Origin: an uncultured Pseudomonadota bacterium
GTDB lineage: Bacteria; Myxococcota_A; UBA796; GCA-2862545
Direction of reading: 5' to 3'
Assembly: GCA_913061235.1 (NCBI GenBank)
Contig: CAJXTB010000004.1
Span: 124,001 to 188,000 of the forward strand
Length of the DNA stretch: 64,000 bases
Positions within the stretch are counted from its first letter, which is position 1. Each line of letters starts with the position of its first letter. The notes beneath the pieces are model-generated. The model searched no databases. It was not told the origin of the DNA and saw only the letters and a list, made by a program, of their open reading frames with translations. Shown here in pieces: positions 15,317 to 25,072 of this stretch. Both the position numbers and the translations under genes were made by a program.

Positions 15317-16111
15317 ATGCGCCTGCTATCTATCGTCTGCTTGTTGAGTTTTGGGGCCTGTGACGCGAAGGACGACTCAGATACGGACGTGGGAACAGGA
15401 ACGGACGTGGGAACAGACACCGACCTGGGAACGGACTCGGACGAAGGCACCGATATGGGCACCGACACTGATGTTGAGGGAACGGACGGCACCGGCGATA
15501 CCGGCTCGACGGACGACCTCGATTTCCCGTCGTACGCTGACGACATTCTGCACAACCAGTCGCTGTCGTCCGCCCAGGGCTCCTGCACGTCGAGCGCCTT
15601 TGATGTGATCTACCCGGTGGAAGGATTCGAGAACAACTACTGGGCTGCGTCTCGCCTGGTCCCGGGTGCGGAAGACTTCACCGTCGATGCAATCAGCATT
15701 GAACTGTACGACGACCCCACCGACAATGGCTGTCGCATCACCACGGCCCGCACCGTGCGCGTGGCCAAGCAGGCCGGCGGCGACCCCGTGCAGCGTCCGT
15801 CCACCATCCCCGGCATTCAGACCTATGAGCTGACGCCGCAATCGGTGCTTACGCGCGACTACCTGATCACTGAGCTAACTACCCCCATCGTCCTGTCGGG
15901 TAGCGATGAGCTGTGGGTCTTTGTTCAGGTCGAGTCCACCAGCAACGGCCGTACGTGCCTGCGTGGCTGCCAAGATGGCCCACAAGGGGACAACAACTGG
16001 TTTACCTCTGGGCAAGCCGGTGCTGCAGAGCCGTTCAGCTGGCGTCGTCTGGAAGACTTCTCGGACATCACGTCGACGAACTACCTAATCGAAGCCTACG
16101 AGCTGCCCTAG
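15317..16111 (+). CDS. Lipoprotein with Asp/Thr/Gly repeat linker, unknown function
   Basis: This 264-residue product starts at ATG 15317 behind GTGAGGATT. The signal ends in lipobox LSFGAC. A linker (about 20-75) repeats Gly-Thr-Asp-x units, then a beta-rich globular domain follows (about 80-264) with Cys pairs and Trp residues, for example GCRITTARTVRVAKQ and ELWVFVQVES. That domain looks like a jelly-roll or carbohydrate-binding-type fold, but I do not recognise a family. A surface role is inferred from the lipobox and linker. Its TAG (16109-16111) and the stop codon of the opposite-strand gene (16108-16110) share the palindrome CTAG. Confidence 0.8.
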   Translation: MRLLSIVCLLSFGACDAKDDSDTDVGTGTDVGTDTDLGTDSDEGTDMGTDTDVEGTDGTGDTGSTDDLDFPSYADDILHNQSLSSAQGSCTSSAFDVIYPVEGFENNYWAASRLVPGAEDFTVDAISIELYDDPTDNGCRITTARTVRVAKQAGGDPVQRPSTIPGIQTYELTPQSVLTRDYLITELTTPIVLSGSDELWVFVQVESTSNGRTCLRGCQDGPQGDNNWFTSGQAGAAEPFSWRRLEDFSDITSTNYLIEAYELP

Positions 16112-16452
16112 TCTTCGTACGTGTATCGGTAAGCGGCTAGCACACAGCGGCCGTTTTCATCGAACACAATGCCCTCGTCTTCGAGCCGTACTTGTTGCTC
16201 GACGGGGCGCTCTACGTCGCCGCGTGCGCTGACCATGCCCTTGGCGTTGATGACGCGGTGCCAAGGAACATCGGTGCCATCAGGAAGGGCGGCGAGGGCG
16301 AAGCCTACTTGGCGGGCCACCCGAGGGCTGCCAAGCACTGAGCCTACGTCACCATAGGTGGACACGTAGCCAGCTGGAATGCGGCGTACGACGGTGTACA
16401 CCTTGTCGCGAAAGCCGGGTCCAATGACGCGGGGTTCGTCTAGATCAGCCAC
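16108..16452 (-). CDS. Alkyltransferase-like (ATL) DNA-damage protein
   Basis: The 114-residue protein matches the DNA-binding domain of O6-alkylguanine-DNA alkyltransferases: VVRRIPAGYVSTYGDVG, the ARQVGFALAALPDGTDVPWHRV region and the INAKGMVS hairpin. The active-site motif PCHRV is PWHRV (Trp64), the hallmark of ATL proteins, which bind alkylated guanine without repair and recruit nucleotide excision repair. GTG 16452 overlaps the end of the FAD oxidoreductase gene by 8 bases. It ends the polyketide operon, which may be chance or may relate to a reactive product. Confidence 0.92.
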   Translation of the reverse strand: MADLDEPRVIGPGFRDKVYTVVRRIPAGYVSTYGDVGSVLGSPRVARQVGFALAALPDGTDVPWHRVINAKGMVSARGDVERPVEQQVRLEDEGIVFDENGRCVLAAYRYTYED

Positions 16453-17500
16453 CGAGCACTCCGACAATACGTGTGAACAACCACGGCATACGCCGGAGCA
16501 ACGGTACCATCTGGCGACGTAGAACGGGGCGGTCTCGCGCCCACAGCAGACCACCGGTCATCCACCAGTACGCGCGGGTCTCGCGCCGCCAAGCGCGGTC
16601 GTAGTTGTGGATATCTCCGCGGACGATGTGCTCAATAGCTAGCTCAGCGGTGGCGAGTCCCATGCGGATGCCCTCGCCCGTGATGGGGTCTAGGTAGCCG
16701 GCAGCATCGCCAACGAGCAGGACCCGCCCCGCTTGCCGTGTGCGGACGCGTCGCTCAAACGGACCGGCGCCGCGAACAACGGTGGATGCCTCTCCAGTCA
16801 GGCGCTCCATGAGTTCGGGAAACTCGGAAAGAAGGGTGTTGTACTTGGCTTCGGCGCCCTTGCCGGGAGGAATCGGGTCTCCGTCGAACAAGACGGCCAC
16901 GCCAATCAGGTCGTCTGCGACGGGCGTGACGTAGGCTTCGGCGCGGTCGGACCAGAACACTTCTACACGGTCTGACCACGGAGCCATGGTGTAGTGCCGG
17001 CGCAGCCCCAGGCGGTTTGCGCGCTTGGACGGCAGGTTTAGATCTAGGCCTGCCCGGATGCCCGAAGACAGGCCATCCGCAGCGATTAGGTAGCGGCCGG
17101 TGTGTCCGGCGGCGGTGACGCTCGAATCGGTCTGGGCGATGTCCTTGACCTTGCCTTCGACCCGCTGAACACCGGCACGCTCCGCGGCTTCGCGTAGGGC
17201 TGTGTGGAGAACGGTGCGTCTGACGCCAAGGCCTGGCTCCCCCGCGAAGGCGCCGTCTGCGCACTGCCCATTGTTTCGGTAGCAGATTCCTGCGAAGGGA
17301 AAGGAGGTCTCTGGGTGTACGTCCAGTGCACTGAGCGCGCGGACCGCAGCGGGCATCAGTCCTTCACCGCACGCTTTGTCGATGACCCCGGGCTTTGGCT
17401 CCACAACAACGACAGACAGACCCTTCTGCGCTGCGTTCAGTGCTGCAGCCAGTCCGCTAGGACCGCCTCCTGCAACAATGACATCTACCTGAACTGCCAA
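16445..17500 (-). CDS. FAD-dependent oxidoreductase, geranylgeranyl reductase/hydroxylase family
   Basis: The 351-residue product starts at TTG 17500, behind GGAGG in the last codons of the FAAL gene. It has the FAD dinucleotide fold VIVAGGGPSGLAAALNAA at the N-terminus, a CGEGLMP segment typical of the geranylgeranyl-reductase-like group, and the second FAD motif VLLVGDAAGYLDPITGEGI (about 270-285). The family either reduces isoprenoid double bonds or hydroxylates aromatics. In the Streptomyces srs locus a flavoprotein hydroxylates the alkylresorcinol made by a type III PKS; this gene holds the equivalent place, so modification of the ring or tail is inferred. Confidence 0.87.
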   Translation of the reverse strand: MAVQVDVIVAGGGPSGLAAALNAAQKGLSVVVVEPKPGVIDKACGEGLMPAAVRALSALDVHPETSFPFAGICYRNNGQCADGAFAGEPGLGVRRTVLHTALREAAERAGVQRVEGKVKDIAQTDSSVTAAGHTGRYLIAADGLSSGIRAGLDLNLPSKRANRLGLRRHYTMAPWSDRVEVFWSDRAEAYVTPVADDLIGVAVLFDGDPIPPGKGAEAKYNTLLSEFPELMERLTGEASTVVRGAGPFERRVRTRQAGRVLLVGDAAGYLDPITGEGIRMGLATAELAIEHIVRGDIHNYDRAWRRETRAYWWMTGGLLWARDRPVLRRQMVPLLRRMPWLFTRIVGVLGG

Positions 17501-19213
17501 CTAAGACCTCCGTGCGCGTGCCCAACCCACCGCAGAACGTGCGAGGTGGCCGGCCATTCTCCAGGCTGAGATTGACTCGGGGGCTGCGAGGGTGCCTGCA
17601 TGAAAGCGACGCAGGGTCTCGCCCCTACGCAGCTTTCCAGAGGATGTACGCGGAATTGTACCCGGTTCAAGAATCGTCACGAGCGACGGTTCGAGCCCGG
17701 TACGCGAGCGAATCGCGCTGTGGCAGGCTGCTGCCATGTCGTCTGTGGGGGTTCGGGCTTCTACAAACACCATCAGTCGTTCGCCGTCTTCGCTCACGTC
17801 TCCGACGGCGACAGCACAGCCTGTGCGTACGCCTTCGATGCCGTCGACAGCACGCTCGATGTCGTGGGGGGCATGGTTCTGACCGCGCAGGACGACCACA
17901 TCCTTGGCTCGGCCTGTGATGAACAGGTCGCCACCGAGGACAACTCCCAAGTCGCCGGTGTCGAGCCATCCGTCTTCAATCGGCTGCTCGTCTCGGTGTA
18001 GGTAGCCCCGCATCAAGGAGGGGCCGCTCGCGAGTACGCGTCCGATAGTTCCGTCGGCCGCGTCATCTCCTGTGGCGGTGCAGACCCGAATAGCGAAACC
18101 TGGAAGGGGGGTGCCCACGCTCGCGAGCTCTACGGTGGTGGCGCTCGGCGAGATGGCGGCGATGTTGTGACCTGCCGCGAGAGCATCACGGTCGACGTGC
18201 AGAGTGGTGAACGGGGTTGTGGGGTCCGAGAACGTGACGGCCAGGGCGGCTTCGGCCAGGCCATACACGGGGGTCAGGGCGTTCGGGGACAAGCCCCACT
18301 GGGCGAAACGCTTGGTGAATGCACGCAAGCTTGCGGGGGCTACCGGCTCTGCGCCATTGAGAGCGAGGGCCCACATGGACAGGTCAACACCGTCCATCTG
18401 TTCGTCTTTGATTCGCTCGGTACACAGGGCGTACGCAAAGTTGGGGGCAGGCGAGGTGGTCACGCTGTGGCGGCTAATGGCGCGTAACCACAGGTGTGGT
18501 TTGGCGAGGAACTGCTCGGGTGGGATGAGAACGAGTGTTCCAGCCGAGACAATGGCGCTGAAGACGCAGCCGATGAGCCCCATGTCGTGGTACAGCGGCA
18601 ACCAACACGCACCGACCCGTCGCACGCCATCATTCGTAGGAACGAACGATAGAATGGCGTCTACGTTGGCAATGACCTGGCGGTGGGTGAGCGCTACAGG
18701 CTTTGGAGCGACGGTGGTTCCAGACGAGAACTGGACCATGGCTAGGTCGTCAGCACTCGGCAATGGCCCGTCGTACAGCTCACCGCTGAGCAGCTCTTCG
18801 GCGCGGATGGAGGGGGTGGGGCGTTGCTCGACCACGCGTCCTAGGATGCGTCGTACCCGCTTGTCGCTGATGAGGGCAGTGGCGCGCACGGCGTTGAGCA
18901 TGGCCACGGTCTTGTCCACGTACTCGTCCATGCGTCCTAAGCGAACGGGAGGGTACAGCGGGACTGGAACGGCTCCGAGTCGCTGACAGCCGAGCAGGGC
19001 GTCAAAGAAGCTTGGGCCGGTTGGCAAGATGATGGCGACGCAGTCACCCGGCTCCACGCCACGGTCTCTCAGCGCTGAGGCGGCTCGTGCGGCCCGCTCT
19101 TCGAGGGTGTGGAAGGACATCGAGGTCTCGGCCTCGCGACCGTCTACAAAGATGAACCCTTCAGCGGTCTTCGCGCTGACTGTTAGCGCATGGACCAGGG
19201 TCTCATGCGGCAT
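17501..19213 (-). CDS. Fatty acyl-AMP ligase (FAAL)
   Basis: The 570-residue adenylating enzyme carries VQFSSGTTVAPKPVALTH (ATP loop), WLPLYHDMGLIG, YGLAEA, DTGDLGV and the C-terminal Lys motif PRTSSGKLRRGETL. The PVPLYPPVRLGR segment near residue 90 is typical of FAALs, which load fatty acids as acyl-AMP onto carrier proteins. ATG 19213 lies inside the end of the ACP gene (11-base overlap). I infer that it charges that ACP with a fatty acid starter for the type III PKS encoded two genes upstream. Confidence 0.92.
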   Translation of the reverse strand: MPHETLVHALTVSAKTAEGFIFVDGREAETSMSFHTLEERAARAASALRDRGVEPGDCVAIILPTGPSFFDALLGCQRLGAVPVPLYPPVRLGRMDEYVDKTVAMLNAVRATALISDKRVRRILGRVVEQRPTPSIRAEELLSGELYDGPLPSADDLAMVQFSSGTTVAPKPVALTHRQVIANVDAILSFVPTNDGVRRVGACWLPLYHDMGLIGCVFSAIVSAGTLVLIPPEQFLAKPHLWLRAISRHSVTTSPAPNFAYALCTERIKDEQMDGVDLSMWALALNGAEPVAPASLRAFTKRFAQWGLSPNALTPVYGLAEAALAVTFSDPTTPFTTLHVDRDALAAGHNIAAISPSATTVELASVGTPLPGFAIRVCTATGDDAADGTIGRVLASGPSLMRGYLHRDEQPIEDGWLDTGDLGVVLGGDLFITGRAKDVVVLRGQNHAPHDIERAVDGIEGVRTGCAVAVGDVSEDGERLMVFVEARTPTDDMAAACHSAIRSRTGLEPSLVTILEPGTIPRTSSGKLRRGETLRRFHAGTLAAPESISAWRMAGHLARSAVGWARARRS

Positions 19214-19433
19214 CAGCAAGGCGCTCAGTCACGACACGAGCGACGTCATCTAGGGTGAGTACGGAGTCGTCGTCTTCGGGTTCAAAGCAGATCTCAAAGT
19301 GGTCTTCGATGGCCACAACCAGCTGTAGACGCTGCATGGAGTCGAGGGCGTCTGCAAGCTGGGCGGTCTCGTCTGGGGCGGCGTCACCCAGCTCGGTCTT
19401 GGCAATCTCAATGACTTGGTCTCGAACAGTCAT
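19203..19433 (-). CDS. Acyl carrier protein
   Basis: The 76-residue acidic protein has the phosphopantetheine site Leu-Ala-Asp-Ala-Leu-Asp-Ser-Met with Ser32, and the helix pattern of ACP/PCP-like carriers. ATG 19433 overlaps the stop of the methyltransferase gene (ATGA), and its own end overlaps the FAAL gene. Placed between FAAL and the PKS genes, it is best read as a dedicated starter carrier rather than the housekeeping AcpP. Its phosphopantetheinyl transferase is not in the window. Confidence 0.92.
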   Translation of the reverse strand: MTVRDQVIEIAKTELGDAAPDETAQLADALDSMQRLQLVVAIEDHFEICFEPEDDDSVLTLDDVARVVTERLADAA

Positions 19434-19951
19434 GTCAGCTCCATCTCATTGAGCGCGTCTTCTTCCACCGAGATGCGCCACCACAGCAAGATACCGTCCA
19501 GTGCGCTGAACAGCAGTGCTGACAGCCAGGCGCCATGAATCAGGGGCAGGGCAATGCCTTCCAAGATGACCGCGACGTAGTTCGGATGGGACAAGAAACG
19601 GTAGGGCCCACCGGTCACACGTGGTAGCCCCGGAACAATGATGACGCGGGTATTCCAGCGCTTTCCGAGGGTCAGGATGCACCACCAGCGAAGCCCCTGG
19701 GTGAGCAGTGCCAACGTCAGCATGGAGTAGCCAATCACCGGTGTGAACAGGCGACCGAGAAGCCAGACCTCGGCGACCATGCCGAACAGGAAGCCGGTGT
19801 GTAGGACGACCATGAACGGGAAGTGGCCAAAGCCAATCTCCTTTCCGCCGTTGGCAAAGCTCCACTTCGCGTTGCGCTTGCTGACGACCAGTTCAACCAG
19901 GCGCTCGACGCCAATCAAGGCAATGAATGCGGTGTATAGCCAAGCGCTCAT
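19430..19951 (-). CDS. ICMT-like integral-membrane methyltransferase (SrsB/BpsB-like)
   Basis: The 173-residue protein has about four to five transmembrane segments and the C-terminal catalytic pattern of isoprenylcysteine carboxyl methyltransferase relatives: RWNTRVIIVPG, GPYRFLSHPNYVAV and the final WWRISVEEDAL. Bacterial members next to type III PKS genes (SrsB, BpsB) O-methylate alkylresorcinols or alkylpyrones at the membrane. ATG 19951 overlaps the TGA of the PKS gene (ATGA). The role in methylating the PKS product is inferred from that gene pairing. Confidence 0.9.
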   Translation of the reverse strand: MSAWLYTAFIALIGVERLVELVVSKRNAKWSFANGGKEIGFGHFPFMVVLHTGFLFGMVAEVWLLGRLFTPVIGYSMLTLALLTQGLRWWCILTLGKRWNTRVIIVPGLPRVTGGPYRFLSHPNYVAVILEGIALPLIHGAWLSALLFSALDGILLWWRISVEEDALNEMELT

Positions 19952-21009
19952 GACCACTCCAACAGCAGCATCTCGGCACAGAAGCCGGGTCCCATGGCCA
20001 TCATGACTCCGTAGGTGCCGGGGGGCGGTCGCCGCTCAGACAGTGTGTCTGCAAGGACGTGAAGCACAGAGGCGCTCGACAAATTGCCAACGTTCTCCAG
20101 TGACTTCCACGACAGCTCAAGGGCGTTGTCTTCGAGTTCCAGGGAGGTCTCGAAGGCCTGTAGAACCTTTGGTCCGCCTGTGTGGCAGACCCAAGTGTGG
20201 ATGTCGTCTCGTGTCAGGCCGTGCTTGGCCAAGAATCCGTCGACATCTGCGCGGGCGTGCTCTTCGACCATTCGAGGGACATCTGCCGACAGCACGATGG
20301 AGAAGCCTGTGGTGCCGATGTCCCATCCCATAACGCGCTCGGTATCGGGATAAAAGCGACTCTCGGTGTCCACAATGCGTGGGCCCGATGTTGCTTGAGC
20401 GGACGCATGGTCGGCTCCGACCGCAACCACTGCCGCCGCACCGTCTCCAAACAAGCCGGATGCGATGAGGTTCGGAATCGACAGGTCCTTTCGCTGCAGC
20501 GTCAGCGAGCACAACTCGACGCATACGAGAACGGCTACGCCGTCTGTGTGGCCCTTGAGGTAGTCGGCGAGTCGTGCGGTTCCAGCGGCACCTGCGACAC
20601 AGCCCAGGCCGAAGATTGGAACCCGCTTTACATCGTTGCGCAGGCCCAGACGGTTCACCAGCAGGGCGTCGATCGAGGGAGCAGAGATGCCCGTGACCGA
20701 TGCAAAGTACAGGGCGTCGACATCTGTGGGCTCAAGGCCAGCATCTGCTAGTGCTTTGGACACCGCTTGCGCCGCTAGGTCCGTACCAACGTCGATGAAT
20801 GCCCGGTTTGCGGCGGTGAAGTCGAGGTCATCGTACGCCTCCATGGGGAGTGCCAGGTGACGGCCCCCCACACGTACGGCCTTGTGGAGTTGGGCCACGC
20901 GACGAGGGTTGTGGTGTTGCATAGCCCACATGGCTTCGAAGGCGGCAAGGAGCTGGTCCTGGTCGTAGTAGTGGGTCGGACGCGCGGTACTGACGGCAGC
21001 AATATTCAT
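19948..21009 (-). CDS. Type III polyketide synthase (chalcone-synthase-like)
   Basis: The 353-residue enzyme has the full catalytic triad: Cys137 in PIFGLGCVAGAAG, His276 in WVCHTGGPK and Asn309 in ENVGNLSSAS. The C-terminal loop GTYGVMMAMGPGFCAEMLLLEW is also typical. Type III PKSs extend acyl starters with malonyl-CoA and cyclise to resorcinols, resorcylic acids or pyrones. With FAAL and ACP downstream, a long-chain acyl-ACP starter is likely here, giving a phenolic lipid or alkylpyrone. It is the first gene of the operon; 102 bases separate it from the divergent choline-type transporter gene. Confidence 0.95.
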   Translation of the reverse strand: MNIAAVSTARPTHYYDQDQLLAAFEAMWAMQHHNPRRVAQLHKAVRVGGRHLALPMEAYDDLDFTAANRAFIDVGTDLAAQAVSKALADAGLEPTDVDALYFASVTGISAPSIDALLVNRLGLRNDVKRVPIFGLGCVAGAAGTARLADYLKGHTDGVAVLVCVELCSLTLQRKDLSIPNLIASGLFGDGAAAVVAVGADHASAQATSGPRIVDTESRFYPDTERVMGWDIGTTGFSIVLSADVPRMVEEHARADVDGFLAKHGLTRDDIHTWVCHTGGPKVLQAFETSLELEDNALELSWKSLENVGNLSSASVLHVLADTLSERRPPPGTYGVMMAMGPGFCAEMLLLEWS

Positions 21010-21111
21010 GGGCTGCGAGTAATCCGGTGTGTCCAGGAGTGAGGTCGCTGGATGTCGTACTGTGCGTTCGGCGGTCTCGTGCGGTTACGGCGCCGGACCT
21101 GGAGGTTGTGG
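21010..21111. promoter_or_regulatory. Shared divergent promoter region, PKS operon / choline transporter
   Basis: These 102 bases separate the starts of two divergent lipid-related units and must hold both promoters. The only element seen clearly is the ribosome site GGAGG at 21101-21105 for the transporter. Confidence 0.45.
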
Positions 21112-22605
21112 ATGGCGGGAGTGTTTTGGCCCGGATTGATTGCCATTGCGGTCTTCTACGGCGTTGTGTTTGTGCTGGGTGTTTGGGCGTCCAAGCAAGG
21201 CGGAGAGACCGAAGGTGAGGGGGGTCTCGAAGAGCTCATTTTGGCCGGACGCTCTCTGCCGTTGTGGGTTGGGTTTTTGACCATGACCGCAACCTGGGTA
21301 GGCGGTGGCTACATCAACGGAACGGCTCAGACCACCTACACATCAGGCATTCTGTGGGGGGCCCAGGCGGGTGTGGGCTACGCGTTGTCGCTTCTGCTCG
21401 GCGGTCTGGTGTTCGCTCGCGTGATGCGACGGCACAACTTCGCCACGCTCGTGGACCCGTTTGAGCGGCGCTACGGCAACAAGGTCGCGGTGCTGATGAT
21501 GCTTCCGGCTGTGTTCGCTGAGACGCTGTGGTCTGCTGCCATTTTGGTCGCCTTGGGCACGACCTTTGCTACGGTTCTTGGCGTGACCAACCTGACGCTG
21601 GCCATCACGATCAGTGCCGCCATTGCCATTGGGTACACGGTCCTAGGTGGCATGCGAGCGGTGGCGTACACCGACGTCATCCAGCTGGGATTCATTGCAG
21701 TTGGGCTCGGCGTGGCGCTGCCGTTTGTGATTGGCGCGGCCGGCGGGCTCGGAGCGGTGACGAGTGCGGCAGGGGCTCTGTCGTTCGGCAGTGCGCGTGA
21801 GACGGTCATGTGGAGCGACTTCACGTTGCTGCTAATTCTCGGTGGAATCCCGTGGAATGTGTACTTTCAGCGTGTCTTGTCGGCGAAGAATGAGAACACC
21901 GCGGCTGGGCTGTCGATCGGCGCTGCGGTTGCCTGCTTGCTCATGGCCATTCCGCCCGTCTTGCTGGGTCTTGCGGCCCGCGAGCTGGACTGGGCGACCG
22001 TGGCGAGTCCCGAGATTGCCGACCTGGTGGTGAGTCAGCCGACCATGGTCCTGCCGTTGTTGCTCCGCTACGCCGTGCCGACGGCTGTTGGTGTCGTGGG
22101 ACTGGGGGCTGTGGCGGCAGCTGTGATGTCGTCGGTGGACTCGTCCATCTTGTCCGCGGCTTCCTTGCTCGCGTGGAACGGCTACCGTCGCTTGTTGGCG
22201 CCGAAAGCGAGTGCAGAGACCGTAGGTAAGCTGGTTCGCGGCTTGGTTGTCGGGCTGGGCATCGTCGCTACCATCATTGCGCTGACGGTCGGAAACGTGT
22301 CCGCGCTCTGGTACTTGTGCGGTGACGTCATCTATTGCGTGCTCTTTCCTCAGCTGGCGATGGCCCTGTTCGACAAGCGTGCCAACTGGATTGGTGCGGT
22401 GTCGGGCTTTGGGGTGAGCGTGTTCATGCGTCTGGGGGGAGGCGATGCCACCTTGGGTCTGCCCAGCTTCTTGGGCTACCCAGACTGGACGGCGGACGAG
22501 TTGGAGTTCCCGTTTCGAACCGTGGCAATGCTCTCGGGCCTGATTGTTGCGTTGGTTGTGAGTCGATTGACGGCGTCTGTCGCACCTCCCAAGCCGCTGG
22601 GCTGA
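21112..22605 (+). CDS. High-affinity choline transporter-like sodium symporter (SLC5A7/CHT-like)
   Basis: The 497-residue protein starts at ATG 21112 behind GGAGG. It is a sodium:solute symporter with about 13 membrane segments, and long stretches match animal CHT1: GLIAIAVFYG, TMTATWVGGGYINGTAQ, LILGGIPWNVYFQRVLS, MSSVDSSILSAAS and the FMRLGGG region near the C-terminus followed by FPFRTVAM. Most bacterial SSS relatives carry proline, pantothenate or sugars and lack these motifs. Choline import driven by sodium is inferred; the next gene, phosphatidylcholine synthase, would consume it. A frame upstream to 21052 is open but has no better ribosome site. Confidence 0.88.
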   Translation: MAGVFWPGLIAIAVFYGVVFVLGVWASKQGGETEGEGGLEELILAGRSLPLWVGFLTMTATWVGGGYINGTAQTTYTSGILWGAQAGVGYALSLLLGGLVFARVMRRHNFATLVDPFERRYGNKVAVLMMLPAVFAETLWSAAILVALGTTFATVLGVTNLTLAITISAAIAIGYTVLGGMRAVAYTDVIQLGFIAVGLGVALPFVIGAAGGLGAVTSAAGALSFGSARETVMWSDFTLLLILGGIPWNVYFQRVLSAKNENTAAGLSIGAAVACLLMAIPPVLLGLAARELDWATVASPEIADLVVSQPTMVLPLLLRYAVPTAVGVVGLGAVAAAVMSSVDSSILSAASLLAWNGYRRLLAPKASAETVGKLVRGLVVGLGIVATIIALTVGNVSALWYLCGDVIYCVLFPQLAMALFDKRANWIGAVSGFGVSVFMRLGGGDATLGLPSFLGYPDWTADELEFPFRTVAMLSGLIVALVVSRLTASVAPPKPLG

Positions 22606-22621
22606 ACCTGCGCGCAGGTTC
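22604..22621. repeat. Perfect 18-base palindrome at the transporter stop codon
   Basis: GAACCTGCG followed by its exact reverse complement starts inside the TGA stop at 22603-22605. It could be a weak hairpin at the mRNA end or a protein-binding site. No T-run follows. Confidence 0.5.
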
Positions 22622-22762
22622 CGGTGAGCGCGACACGCACAGGCCTGGAAATCTCATGACCGGGACCGACCGGCTGTCGTTCCCCACCTCGGAACACTGC
22701 CAAACCGTCGCCAGGCTGCTCGGAGACTGACCAAGGCCCGATACCGGGCTAGAGTGCCCAGC

Positions 22763-23500
22763 ATGTCTGCACAGCCCATCCTTGAGACCCACTCCGTAGG
22801 TGCCCGAGCGCGCGCCTGGGGCGTGCATGTGTTCACTCTGCTCGGACTCCCGCTGGCCTTTGTGGCGGCTGTTGGGTTGGCCCAGGGCGACGCCCGTCTG
22901 TTCTTTGGAGCCATGTGGACCACGGCGTTCATTGACAGTGTGGATGGCACGCTGGCCCGAAAGGCTCGCGTCAAGCAAGTGGTGCCCCAGTTCGATGGTG
23001 CTTTGCTCGACAATATCATCGACTTTCTGACGTTCGTCTTCCTACCTGTTCTGGCGTTGCCAGCACTTGGTTTGCTTCCTGGAAACTGGATTTGGTGGGC
23101 AATTCTCCCGCTAATGGCCAGCGGCTACCAGTTCTGTCAGGCCACCGCCAAGACCGACGAGTCGTTCATCGGGTTCCCGTCGTACTGGAATGTGGTTGTC
23201 ATTTACCTGTACGTCTTGGACAGCCCGCCGTGGTTCAGTGCGGTGCTGCTGTCCGTCTTTGCGTTGTTGGTGTTCATTCCCACGCACTACCTGTACCCGT
23301 CGCGCACCCGCTGGCTGCGCCCGCTGACGCTGGGCCTCGGTGCCATCTGGAGCGTTGGCCTGATTGTGATGTGCGTCGACCCAAGCAGTACATGGGCTGA
23401 GACACTGGCTTGGGTGTCGCTGTACTTCCCGGCCTACTACTTTGTGATGTCGTTCATTCACGACCGGCGGATTCGGTCAGGTGCCTACGTCATTGAGTAG
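22763..23500 (+). CDS. pcs: Phosphatidylcholine synthase
   Basis: The 245-residue membrane protein has the CDP-alcohol phosphatidyltransferase motif in the Pcs variant form: DSVDGTLARKARVKQ, followed by FDGALLDNIIDFLTFVFLP. Later GFPSYWNVVVIYLYVL is also characteristic of Pcs. It has about eight transmembrane segments. Pcs condenses choline directly with CDP-diacylglycerol to make phosphatidylcholine and CMP in the inner membrane. The start is ATG 22763 (GTG 22754 is possible); the ribosome site is weak. The choline-type transporter 157 bases upstream on the same strand supports a choline salvage pathway. Confidence 0.92.
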   Translation: MSAQPILETHSVGARARAWGVHVFTLLGLPLAFVAAVGLAQGDARLFFGAMWTTAFIDSVDGTLARKARVKQVVPQFDGALLDNIIDFLTFVFLPVLALPALGLLPGNWIWWAILPLMASGYQFCQATAKTDESFIGFPSYWNVVVIYLYVLDSPPWFSAVLLSVFALLVFIPTHYLYPSRTRWLRPLTLGLGAIWSVGLIVMCVDPSSTWAETLAWVSLYFPAYYFVMSFIHDRRIRSGAYVIE

Positions 23501-23571: not shown

Positions 23572-23617
23572 TTGGGCCATGACAGCATTTACCCACTGGC
23601 CCTACCGGGGAGAACGA

Positions 23618-25072
23618 ATGTCCAAGTGGAATGTCTTGTTAGCGTTGTTGGTCGCACCGGCAGCCCTCGCTGCTGACCCTACCGACGACTGTGTGGATGC
23701 CTACGAGGCTGACGGTAGCTGTGTGTCGCTTCAGGCCACTATCGGTCCGAACATCTCGTTCGGAACGGGCGTGACGGTCGCGCCCCGCGCAACGTTGGCT
23801 GGGCATCAGTCCCATGGCACGAACCCTCTGCCAGTCGGCGACAATGTTGTGGTTCAACGACAGGCAACAATCGGCGTGGACCACGTACTTGGCAACGACA
23901 CAACGATTGGTCGCGCCGCGACAATCGGGGCGAATCTGACGACCCAGACTGGTGCCACCATTGGCTACGCAGCACAGCTCGGGCATGACGTGACGCTGGA
24001 AGCGAACGCAACTGTTGGCAACTTGGCCAACATCGGTGACTTCACCACCGTAGGAACGAACGCTGTTCTGGCCCGCTCTGTCTTTGTGGATGATGCCGGC
24101 TCGTTAGGCCAGGCGTCTACAATCGACGGAATCGTCGGGCCCGACACCACTATCGGTACACACGTCACGATTGATTCGGGGGCGCGTATTCGGAAGAACG
24201 CCACCATCGACTCAGACGTCGTTGTTGAAGGCTCCGCACGCGTGGGTCGAGGCGCCCACATCTTCCCGAACGCGACGATTCGTGGCCGGGTGGGCACCAA
24301 CGCCGTTGTTGCTGGTGGAGCGACAGTAGAAGATGGTGCTGTCGTTGAGCGCGGCGGCACGCTGTGCTCAGGGGAACAGCTGCTCTCTGGCGAGCGGGTT
24401 GTCGGTGGTGAGACATTCCCATCGGGCGGCTGTGAGACATCCATCACCTGCAAGACGCTTTTGGACGGCGGCCAGACAGTCAGCGGTGACTACACCATTG
24501 ACCCCGACGGGTCTGGCGGAACGGCTCCGTTCACAGCGTACTGCGACATGACCGTGGACTCGGGTGGGTGGACACGGGTTTGGGTTGCGGTCACCGACAA
24601 CTACAATGATACCGGCTTGACTTACCTGCCTAATACATCAGGTCCTGACTCGGTCATCTCCAACTCAACGGAGATGATGGTCGCTTTCACCAGCCCGTCG
24701 ACAGGCAGCACGACGAATGAGTGGAGCTTTCCAACTCCGACGTTGCTGCACTCGCAGACGCCCATGGCGGCAACGGGGGCGCAATACATCACATCGACAT
24801 TCAAGCGTATTGCCGACCAGACTAGCCATGCTCGCGTAATGCGTGTTGGAACGGCATCGTTCTCGGATGAGTGCGACGAGGGCAATAGCAGCCAGTGGGG
24901 CCAGATCTGCCTGAAGTCCAACACGAGTCAGGGTTCGGTTGGTGGATTCAGTGATTTCCCGATGTACGCGGGCTACGCGGCTAGCAACGTCGACTACTGC
25001 ACCGAGTCGCCCCAGATCTACACAGCTACAGCCTGTTCAAGCAGCCGTCGGTTTGCAATTTTCGTCCGGTAG
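23618..25072 (+). CDS. Secreted hexapeptide beta-helix protein with C-terminal fibrinogen-like domain
   Basis: The 484-residue protein starts at ATG 23618 behind GGGGAG and has a signal peptide (ending PAALAADP). Residues about 37-255 are hexapeptide-type repeats (patterns such as ATIGAN, TTIGRA, VTIDSG), which normally fold as a left-handed beta-helix. From about 275 a fibrinogen-like module follows: CKTLLDGGQTVSGDYTID, then PFTAYCDMTVDSGGWTRVW, with Cys pairs to the end. Fibrinogen-like domains bind acetylated sugars or proteins. The combination suggests an extended stalk presenting a recognition head. No enzymatic motif of acyltransferases (catalytic His loop) is evident. Confidence 0.82.
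   Translation: MSKWNVLLALLVAPAALAADPTDDCVDAYEADGSCVSLQATIGPNISFGTGVTVAPRATLAGHQSHGTNPLPVGDNVVVQRQATIGVDHVLGNDTTIGRAATIGANLTTQTGATIGYAAQLGHDVTLEANATVGNLANIGDFTTVGTNAVLARSVFVDDAGSLGQASTIDGIVGPDTTIGTHVTIDSGARIRKNATIDSDVVVEGSARVGRGAHIFPNATIRGRVGTNAVVAGGATVEDGAVVERGGTLCSGEQLLSGERVVGGETFPSGGCETSITCKTLLDGGQTVSGDYTIDPDGSGGTAPFTAYCDMTVDSGGWTRVWVAVTDNYNDTGLTYLPNTSGPDSVISNSTEMMVAFTSPSTGSTTNEWSFPTPTLLHSQTPMAATGAQYITSTFKRIADQTSHARVMRVGTASFSDECDEGNSSQWGQICLKSNTSQGSVGGFSDFPMYAGYAASNVDYCTESPQIYTATACSSSRRFAIFVR

Follow-up and report, generated by a model that had tools for sequence, protein, structure and literature searches.

The adjacent genes cht and pcs lie in a 64,000-nucleotide stretch of DNA from an uncultured bacterium, here called the window, and we estimate with a probability of about 85% that they form a choline-to-phosphatidylcholine salvage pair. 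Four observations carry this reading: the identity of the two genes, the conservation of the symporter's choline- and ion-binding residues, the linkage of the two genes and their co-occurrence across genomes. Such a salvage route had been proposed in a sequence-only reading of the window, and it is still the best account of the pair, now backed by a survey of genomes, with choline as the predicted substrate and phosphatidylcholine as the predicted product.

How would such a pair operate? CHT proteins couple the entry of choline to Na+ (PMC13220886, PMC11589582), and Pcs takes choline and CDP-diacylglycerol directly. The symporter would draw on the inward Na+ gradient, using its Na2 and Na3 sites and with Cl- as a probable cofactor, to concentrate external choline. 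The substrate would be held in an aromatic cage (W62, Y67, Y90, W140, W248, W400) and let go to the cytosol past R47, Q253 and R254. Pcs, in the inner membrane, would then join the free choline and CDP-diacylglycerol to yield phosphatidylcholine and CMP; the pair would need neither choline kinase nor CTP-activated choline, and phosphatidylcholine would presumably be the main fate of the imported choline.

The positions given for both genes in the sequence-only reading were confirmed from the list of open reading frames and from the sequence. The symporter gene, cht (21112..22605, + strand, 497 aa), starts at ATG 21112, just 3' of a GGAGG-type ribosome-binding site, and its stop codon ends at 22605. 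The start of pcs (22763..23500, + strand, 245 aa) is ATG 22763, with GTG 22754 as an alternative. In the 157 bp between them (22606..22762, + strand), a simple consensus scan found neither a sigma-70-like promoter nor a T-tailed (intrinsic) terminator. The two genes are predicted to be co-expressed. The same kind of scan found no consensus sigma-70 site in the 102-bp divergent region (21010..21111) that separates cht from a type III polyketide synthase (PKS) operon; the cht promoter probably lies within this region. A perfect 16-bp palindrome, AACCTGCGCGCAGGTT, is present at 22605-22620; it begins on the last base of the cht stop codon and occurs as a single copy in the window. The gene 3' of pcs begins at 23579 (23579-25072, + strand) and encodes a protein with hexapeptide left-handed beta-helix repeats and a fibrinogen-C-like start (Pfam 23.5 bits).

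The cht product is a member of the SLC5A7/CHT1 family. When it was compared with all PDB sequences using phmmer, the top match was a bacterial CHT (9rws, an entry titled as SLC5A7; 5e-137, 461 bits). Human CHT1 was matched at 1.6e-106, the best sugar symporter at only 3e-15, and the next symporter family lay about 400 bits below CHT. The CHT1-like motifs remarked on in the sequence-only reading are thus part of a similarity far beyond chance. On a common alignment, the protein shares 43% identity with human CHT1, 51% with sfCHT from Salimicrobium flavidum and 56–65% with its nearest bacterial relatives; identity to the compared CHTs is at least 43%, with one exception at 42.6%, and identity to PutP, PanF, ActP and three paralogues from the same genome is at most 24%.

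A maximum-likelihood tree (IQ-TREE) united 28 CHTs, including human CHT1 and sfCHT, in one clade with support of 100/99. PutP, PanF, ActP and the three paralogues fell outside it, with PutP pairing with one of the paralogues; because the outgroup branches are long, the branching order outside the CHT clade is unsure. The protein therefore groups with CHT1 and sfCHT and not with proline or sugar symporters, as its naming as a choline transporter had implied. Its AlphaFold2 model (pLDDT 82) has human CHT1 as all nine of its best PDB fold matches (E 8e-26 to 3e-22; TM up to 0.87); the next match, SGLT2 (7e-13), has an E-value about thirteen orders of magnitude short of the best. That the protein is a symporter for proline, pantothenate, acetate or sugar was ruled out by the scores, the sequence identities and the tree. 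The cht product is predicted to be an Na+-dependent choline transporter, with Cl- as its probable cofactor. The label “animal-type”, which the sequence-only reading had attached to it, is misleading: CHTs occur widely in bacteria, choline transport has been proven for one of these bacterial members (PMC13220886), and the animal protein forms one branch of the family.

The residues that form the choline cage, the Cl- loop, Na2 and Na3 are known from structures of human CHT1 (PMC11589582), and those of the release path are named in the sfCHT paper (PMC13220886). All six caging aromatics of the human protein (W62, Y67, Y91, W141, W254, W406) are kept in the window protein (W62, Y67, Y90, W140, W248, W400). 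The Cl- loop (63VGGGY67 in human CHT1) is identical, as are Na2 (human S346/S347, window S340/S341) and Na3 (human D188, D349, S350; window D188, D343, S344). R47, Q253 and R254 on the release path of the window protein match human CHT1 in the alignment, and so does S257. The choline assignment of the earlier reading is therefore upheld at the level of individual residues: the whole cage and the Cl-, Na2 and Na3 residues of CHT1 are retained.

Differences from human CHT1 comprise E73Q, S243F, Y403S and S410G; E73Q, Y403S and S410G are on the outer side, and the alignment puts E73Q, S243F and Y403S in or near the hemicholinium-3 (HC-3) site. Residue 73 (21328-21330) is Q in the window protein and E in all 27 other CHTs compared. 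In human CHT1, E73 contacts the far end (the second ammonium) of HC-3; hence, a changed inhibitor sensitivity is predicted for the Q73 protein. Two CHT-like proteins from the Acidobacteriota survey (L100:6906-8300 and L101:6874-8334) carry G64D in the Cl- loop and D349S in Na3. They constitute a divergent subgroup that does not adjoin Pcs, and their ion coupling is perhaps altered.

That the next gene is pcs, as previously proposed, is a point on which family scores, catalytic motif and fold agree. By its sequence, 22763-23500 encodes a phosphatidylcholine synthase of the CDP-alcohol phosphotransferase family with the catalytic motif, and Pcs activity is accordingly a prediction. Its best NCBIfam matches are five Pcs models (123–154 bits, along most of its length), and the PssA model gives 21 bits. 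The protein remains below every equivalog cut-off (154 bits at best vs. 440 bits needed) because the NCBIfam Pcs models are narrow and lineage-specific. In a control, annotated Pcs proteins from S. meliloti, Legionella adelaidensis and P. aeruginosa passed only the model of their own lineage and scored 118–240 bits on those of the others; a missed cut-off thus cannot exclude membership in the Pcs family. The Pcs form of the CDP-alcohol phosphotransferase motif, DG-x2-AR-x12-G-x3-D-x3-D, is present (D61GTLAR66, G79, D83, D87), and this stretch (DGTLAR-x12-G-x3-D-x3-D) aligns with the S. meliloti, Legionella and P. aeruginosa enzymes, to which the window protein is 31–33% identical over the whole alignment. 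In a fold comparison, its model (pLDDT 86) matched the phosphatidylserine synthase PssA (E 1e-4).

Does the pairing of the two genes extend beyond the window? A scan of a genome collection, seeded with the transporter only, returned 11 loci, in 8 of which Pcs adjoins CHT. Four phylum surveys found CHT in 5/284, 8/378, 2/198 and 12/199 genomes; these sets have genomes in common with one another and with the 11 loci, and merging of duplicates left 25 CHT genomes. Many of the surveyed genomes are metagenome-assembled, with taxon labels as deposited, and MAGs labelled “Rhodobacterales” and “Proteobacteria” sit among the Myxococcota genomes. Genomes of the same family as the window's share their CHT coordinates with the deposited MAGs GY13CH, M1803 and GEM2, so that the window most likely derives from Myxococcota. 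Pcs is encoded in 24 of the 25 CHT genomes. The two genes overlap or lie within about 160 bp of each other in 15 of the 25, always with Pcs 3' of CHT, on the same strand in nine cases and convergent in six; one further pair is 3.9 kb apart. When adjacency was mapped onto the CHT tree, it changed six times, vs. 11.5 in shuffles. The two orientations and this number of changes argue for repeated formation or retention of the linkage. As 10 of the 25 CHT genes do not adjoin Pcs, the linkage is favoured and not required. The survey of co-occurrence thus backs the choline-to-phosphatidylcholine route put forward from the sequence. The one Pcs-less CHT genome (1/25) was considered as a counter-example and set aside: its CHT contig spans just 3.5 kb, and in a near-identical relative the two genes share a contig at a distance of 3.9 kb. 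In two same-family genomes (L031 and L032; G118:C5 and G020:C9), the frame that holds Pcs is long and contains a single in-frame TAG, possibly an overlap or a read-through frame.

The association is also apparent within phyla. Among 199 Acidobacteriota genomes, 12 have CHT, 16 have Pcs and 11 have both (Fisher 1.4e-13, a value that ignores relatedness); Pcs is found in 11/12 genomes with CHT vs. 5/187 without it. In the window's own phylum, Pcs occurs in 79 of 284 genomes and in all five with CHT (p 0.0015, uncorrected for relatedness). Most Pcs genomes of this phylum are without CHT, so Pcs does not need CHT. We looked at 20 Pcs loci from relatives without CHT for an alternative choline transporter beside Pcs; their neighbours, inspected by eye from home-made ORF calls and from translations of a set of them but not scanned for domains, were mixed, and no common transporter was seen.

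In our judgment, CHT-Pcs is likely a dedicated salvage module that came together or was retained on several occasions in Myxococcota, Planctomycetota and Acidobacteriota. Because the pairing recurs in distantly related bacteria, the pump there probably feeds the synthesis of membrane lipid and not of a neurotransmitter. The recurrent pairing appears to be undescribed so far; its component parts were already known. We found no prior report of a CHT-Pcs link in the open-access literature, which is weak evidence of novelty, as most subscription journals and preprints were outside the scope of the search.

These results bear on what bacterial CHTs are for. sfCHT was reported in 2026, and the mere existence of a CHT in bacteria has since ceased to be a surprise. 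According to that paper, sfCHT transports choline in an Na+-dependent manner in proteoliposomes, and the physiological role of prokaryotic CHTs is called unclear (PMC13220886). sfCHT (PDB 9rws, 9rwt) and the window protein share family, 51% identity and the same choline, Na+ and release-path residues; the window protein departs from it with Q73, a position occupied by E in every other CHT compared, and with S at human position 403 and G at 410. The source of sfCHT is a halophilic member of the Bacillota, and the available text leaves its role open and mentions no link to pcs (PMC13220886), whereas the window gene adjoins pcs. Human SLC5A7/CHT1 (PDB 8j74, 9bfj and others; PMC11589582) has the same six-aromatic cage, VGGGY loop, Na2, Na3 and fold (43% identity, TM 0.87), but it supplies neuronal acetylcholine synthesis, while the window gene is bacterial and paired with pcs. 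In Brucella, external choline is likewise used directly by Pcs to make phosphatidylcholine, but uptake is by the ABC system ChoXWV (PMC8371380), in contrast to the single-gene SLC5-type symporter beside pcs in the window. If the reading as a dedicated module is true, it would answer what CHT1-type transporters do in many bacteria. For several phyla, the recurrent pair and the near-total co-occurrence supply an answer that is direct and open to test: feeding phosphatidylcholine synthesis. Small bacterial systems would also become available for work on CHT1 residues, with lipid as a simple read-out.

A homologue on a Priestia megaterium plasmid (L067, NZ_CP140268.1), the only plasmid-borne CHT relative found, belongs to the same CHT clade (47% identity to the window protein) and also adjoins choline-using genes. 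Its neighbours are gbsB, for a choline dehydrogenase, and a betaine-aldehyde dehydrogenase gene, which indicates conversion of choline to betaine there. This is a second, independent tie of the CHT clade to choline metabolism, with a different sink, and it suggests that the same transporter is coupled to a different choline sink elsewhere. The TM8 Na2/Na3 residues of this protein (L067:7812-9524) are all alanine (MAAVAAS), with the choline cage kept; it may be Na+-independent, or the sequence may be an oddity.

Could the window symporter, too, import choline mainly for oxidation to glycine betaine as an osmoprotectant, or for catabolism, with Pcs a secondary neighbour? The Priestia genes, both of which score over their NCBIfam cut-offs, point in this direction, as do BetA-like dehydrogenases in some other CHT genomes (one over the cut-off) and the osmoadaptation proposed for the halophile's sfCHT (PMC13220886). 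However, the conserved neighbour in the window's clade is Pcs, and a search of the window's genome for the two choline-route proteins BCCT and BetA found no BCCT transporter and no BetA; for BetA, the hits were only partial, to the GMC family, and reached no more than 35 bits where the cut-off is 732. We thus regard a mainly betaine-directed or catabolic role as improbable. About equally improbable is a role for the pair with some related amine or alcohol instead of choline, which would yield a lipid other than phosphatidylcholine. The 31–33% identity of Pcs to the three enzymes of other lineages, with scores below every equivalog cut-off, and the outer-side departures E73Q, Y403S and S410G of the transporter would fit such a change of substrate, but the six caging residues and the Cl- site are unchanged, and Pcs proteins run against the models of other lineages do not reach higher scores. 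Salvage of choline into phosphatidylcholine remains the preferred reading.

The sequence-only reading had gone further and joined cht-pcs with the divergent type III PKS operon into a single membrane-lipid locus. The neighbour itself is as described: the PKS gene (19948-21009, - strand) lies 102 bp upstream of cht in divergent orientation. It belongs to a phenolic-lipid-type operon of four genes (16445-21009, - strand) for the PKS, an ICMT-type methyltransferase, a fatty acyl-AMP ligase-like protein and an FAD oxidoreductase (flavoprotein). A shared purpose is very unlikely. The short divergent spacing and the fact that both sets of genes act on lipids speak for it, but PKS, ICMT and flavoprotein genes were near none of the other CHT loci examined, and the operon has the look of a phenolic-lipid cluster of known kind that is complete in itself. 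The operon was thus rejected as a functional partner of cht-pcs and is treated as an independent neighbour. It resembles srs/hid-type alkylresorcinol clusters, with an acyl-AMP ligase in addition. Alkylresorcinol clusters of Planctomycetota combine a methyltransferase, an oxidoreductase and a type III PKS, and those of cyanobacteria are hidABC (PMC10896814); a title cited in that paper links a fatty acyl-AMP ligase with a type III PKS of Myxococcus xanthus. After the four-gene operon comes an alkyltransferase-like gene (16108-16554).
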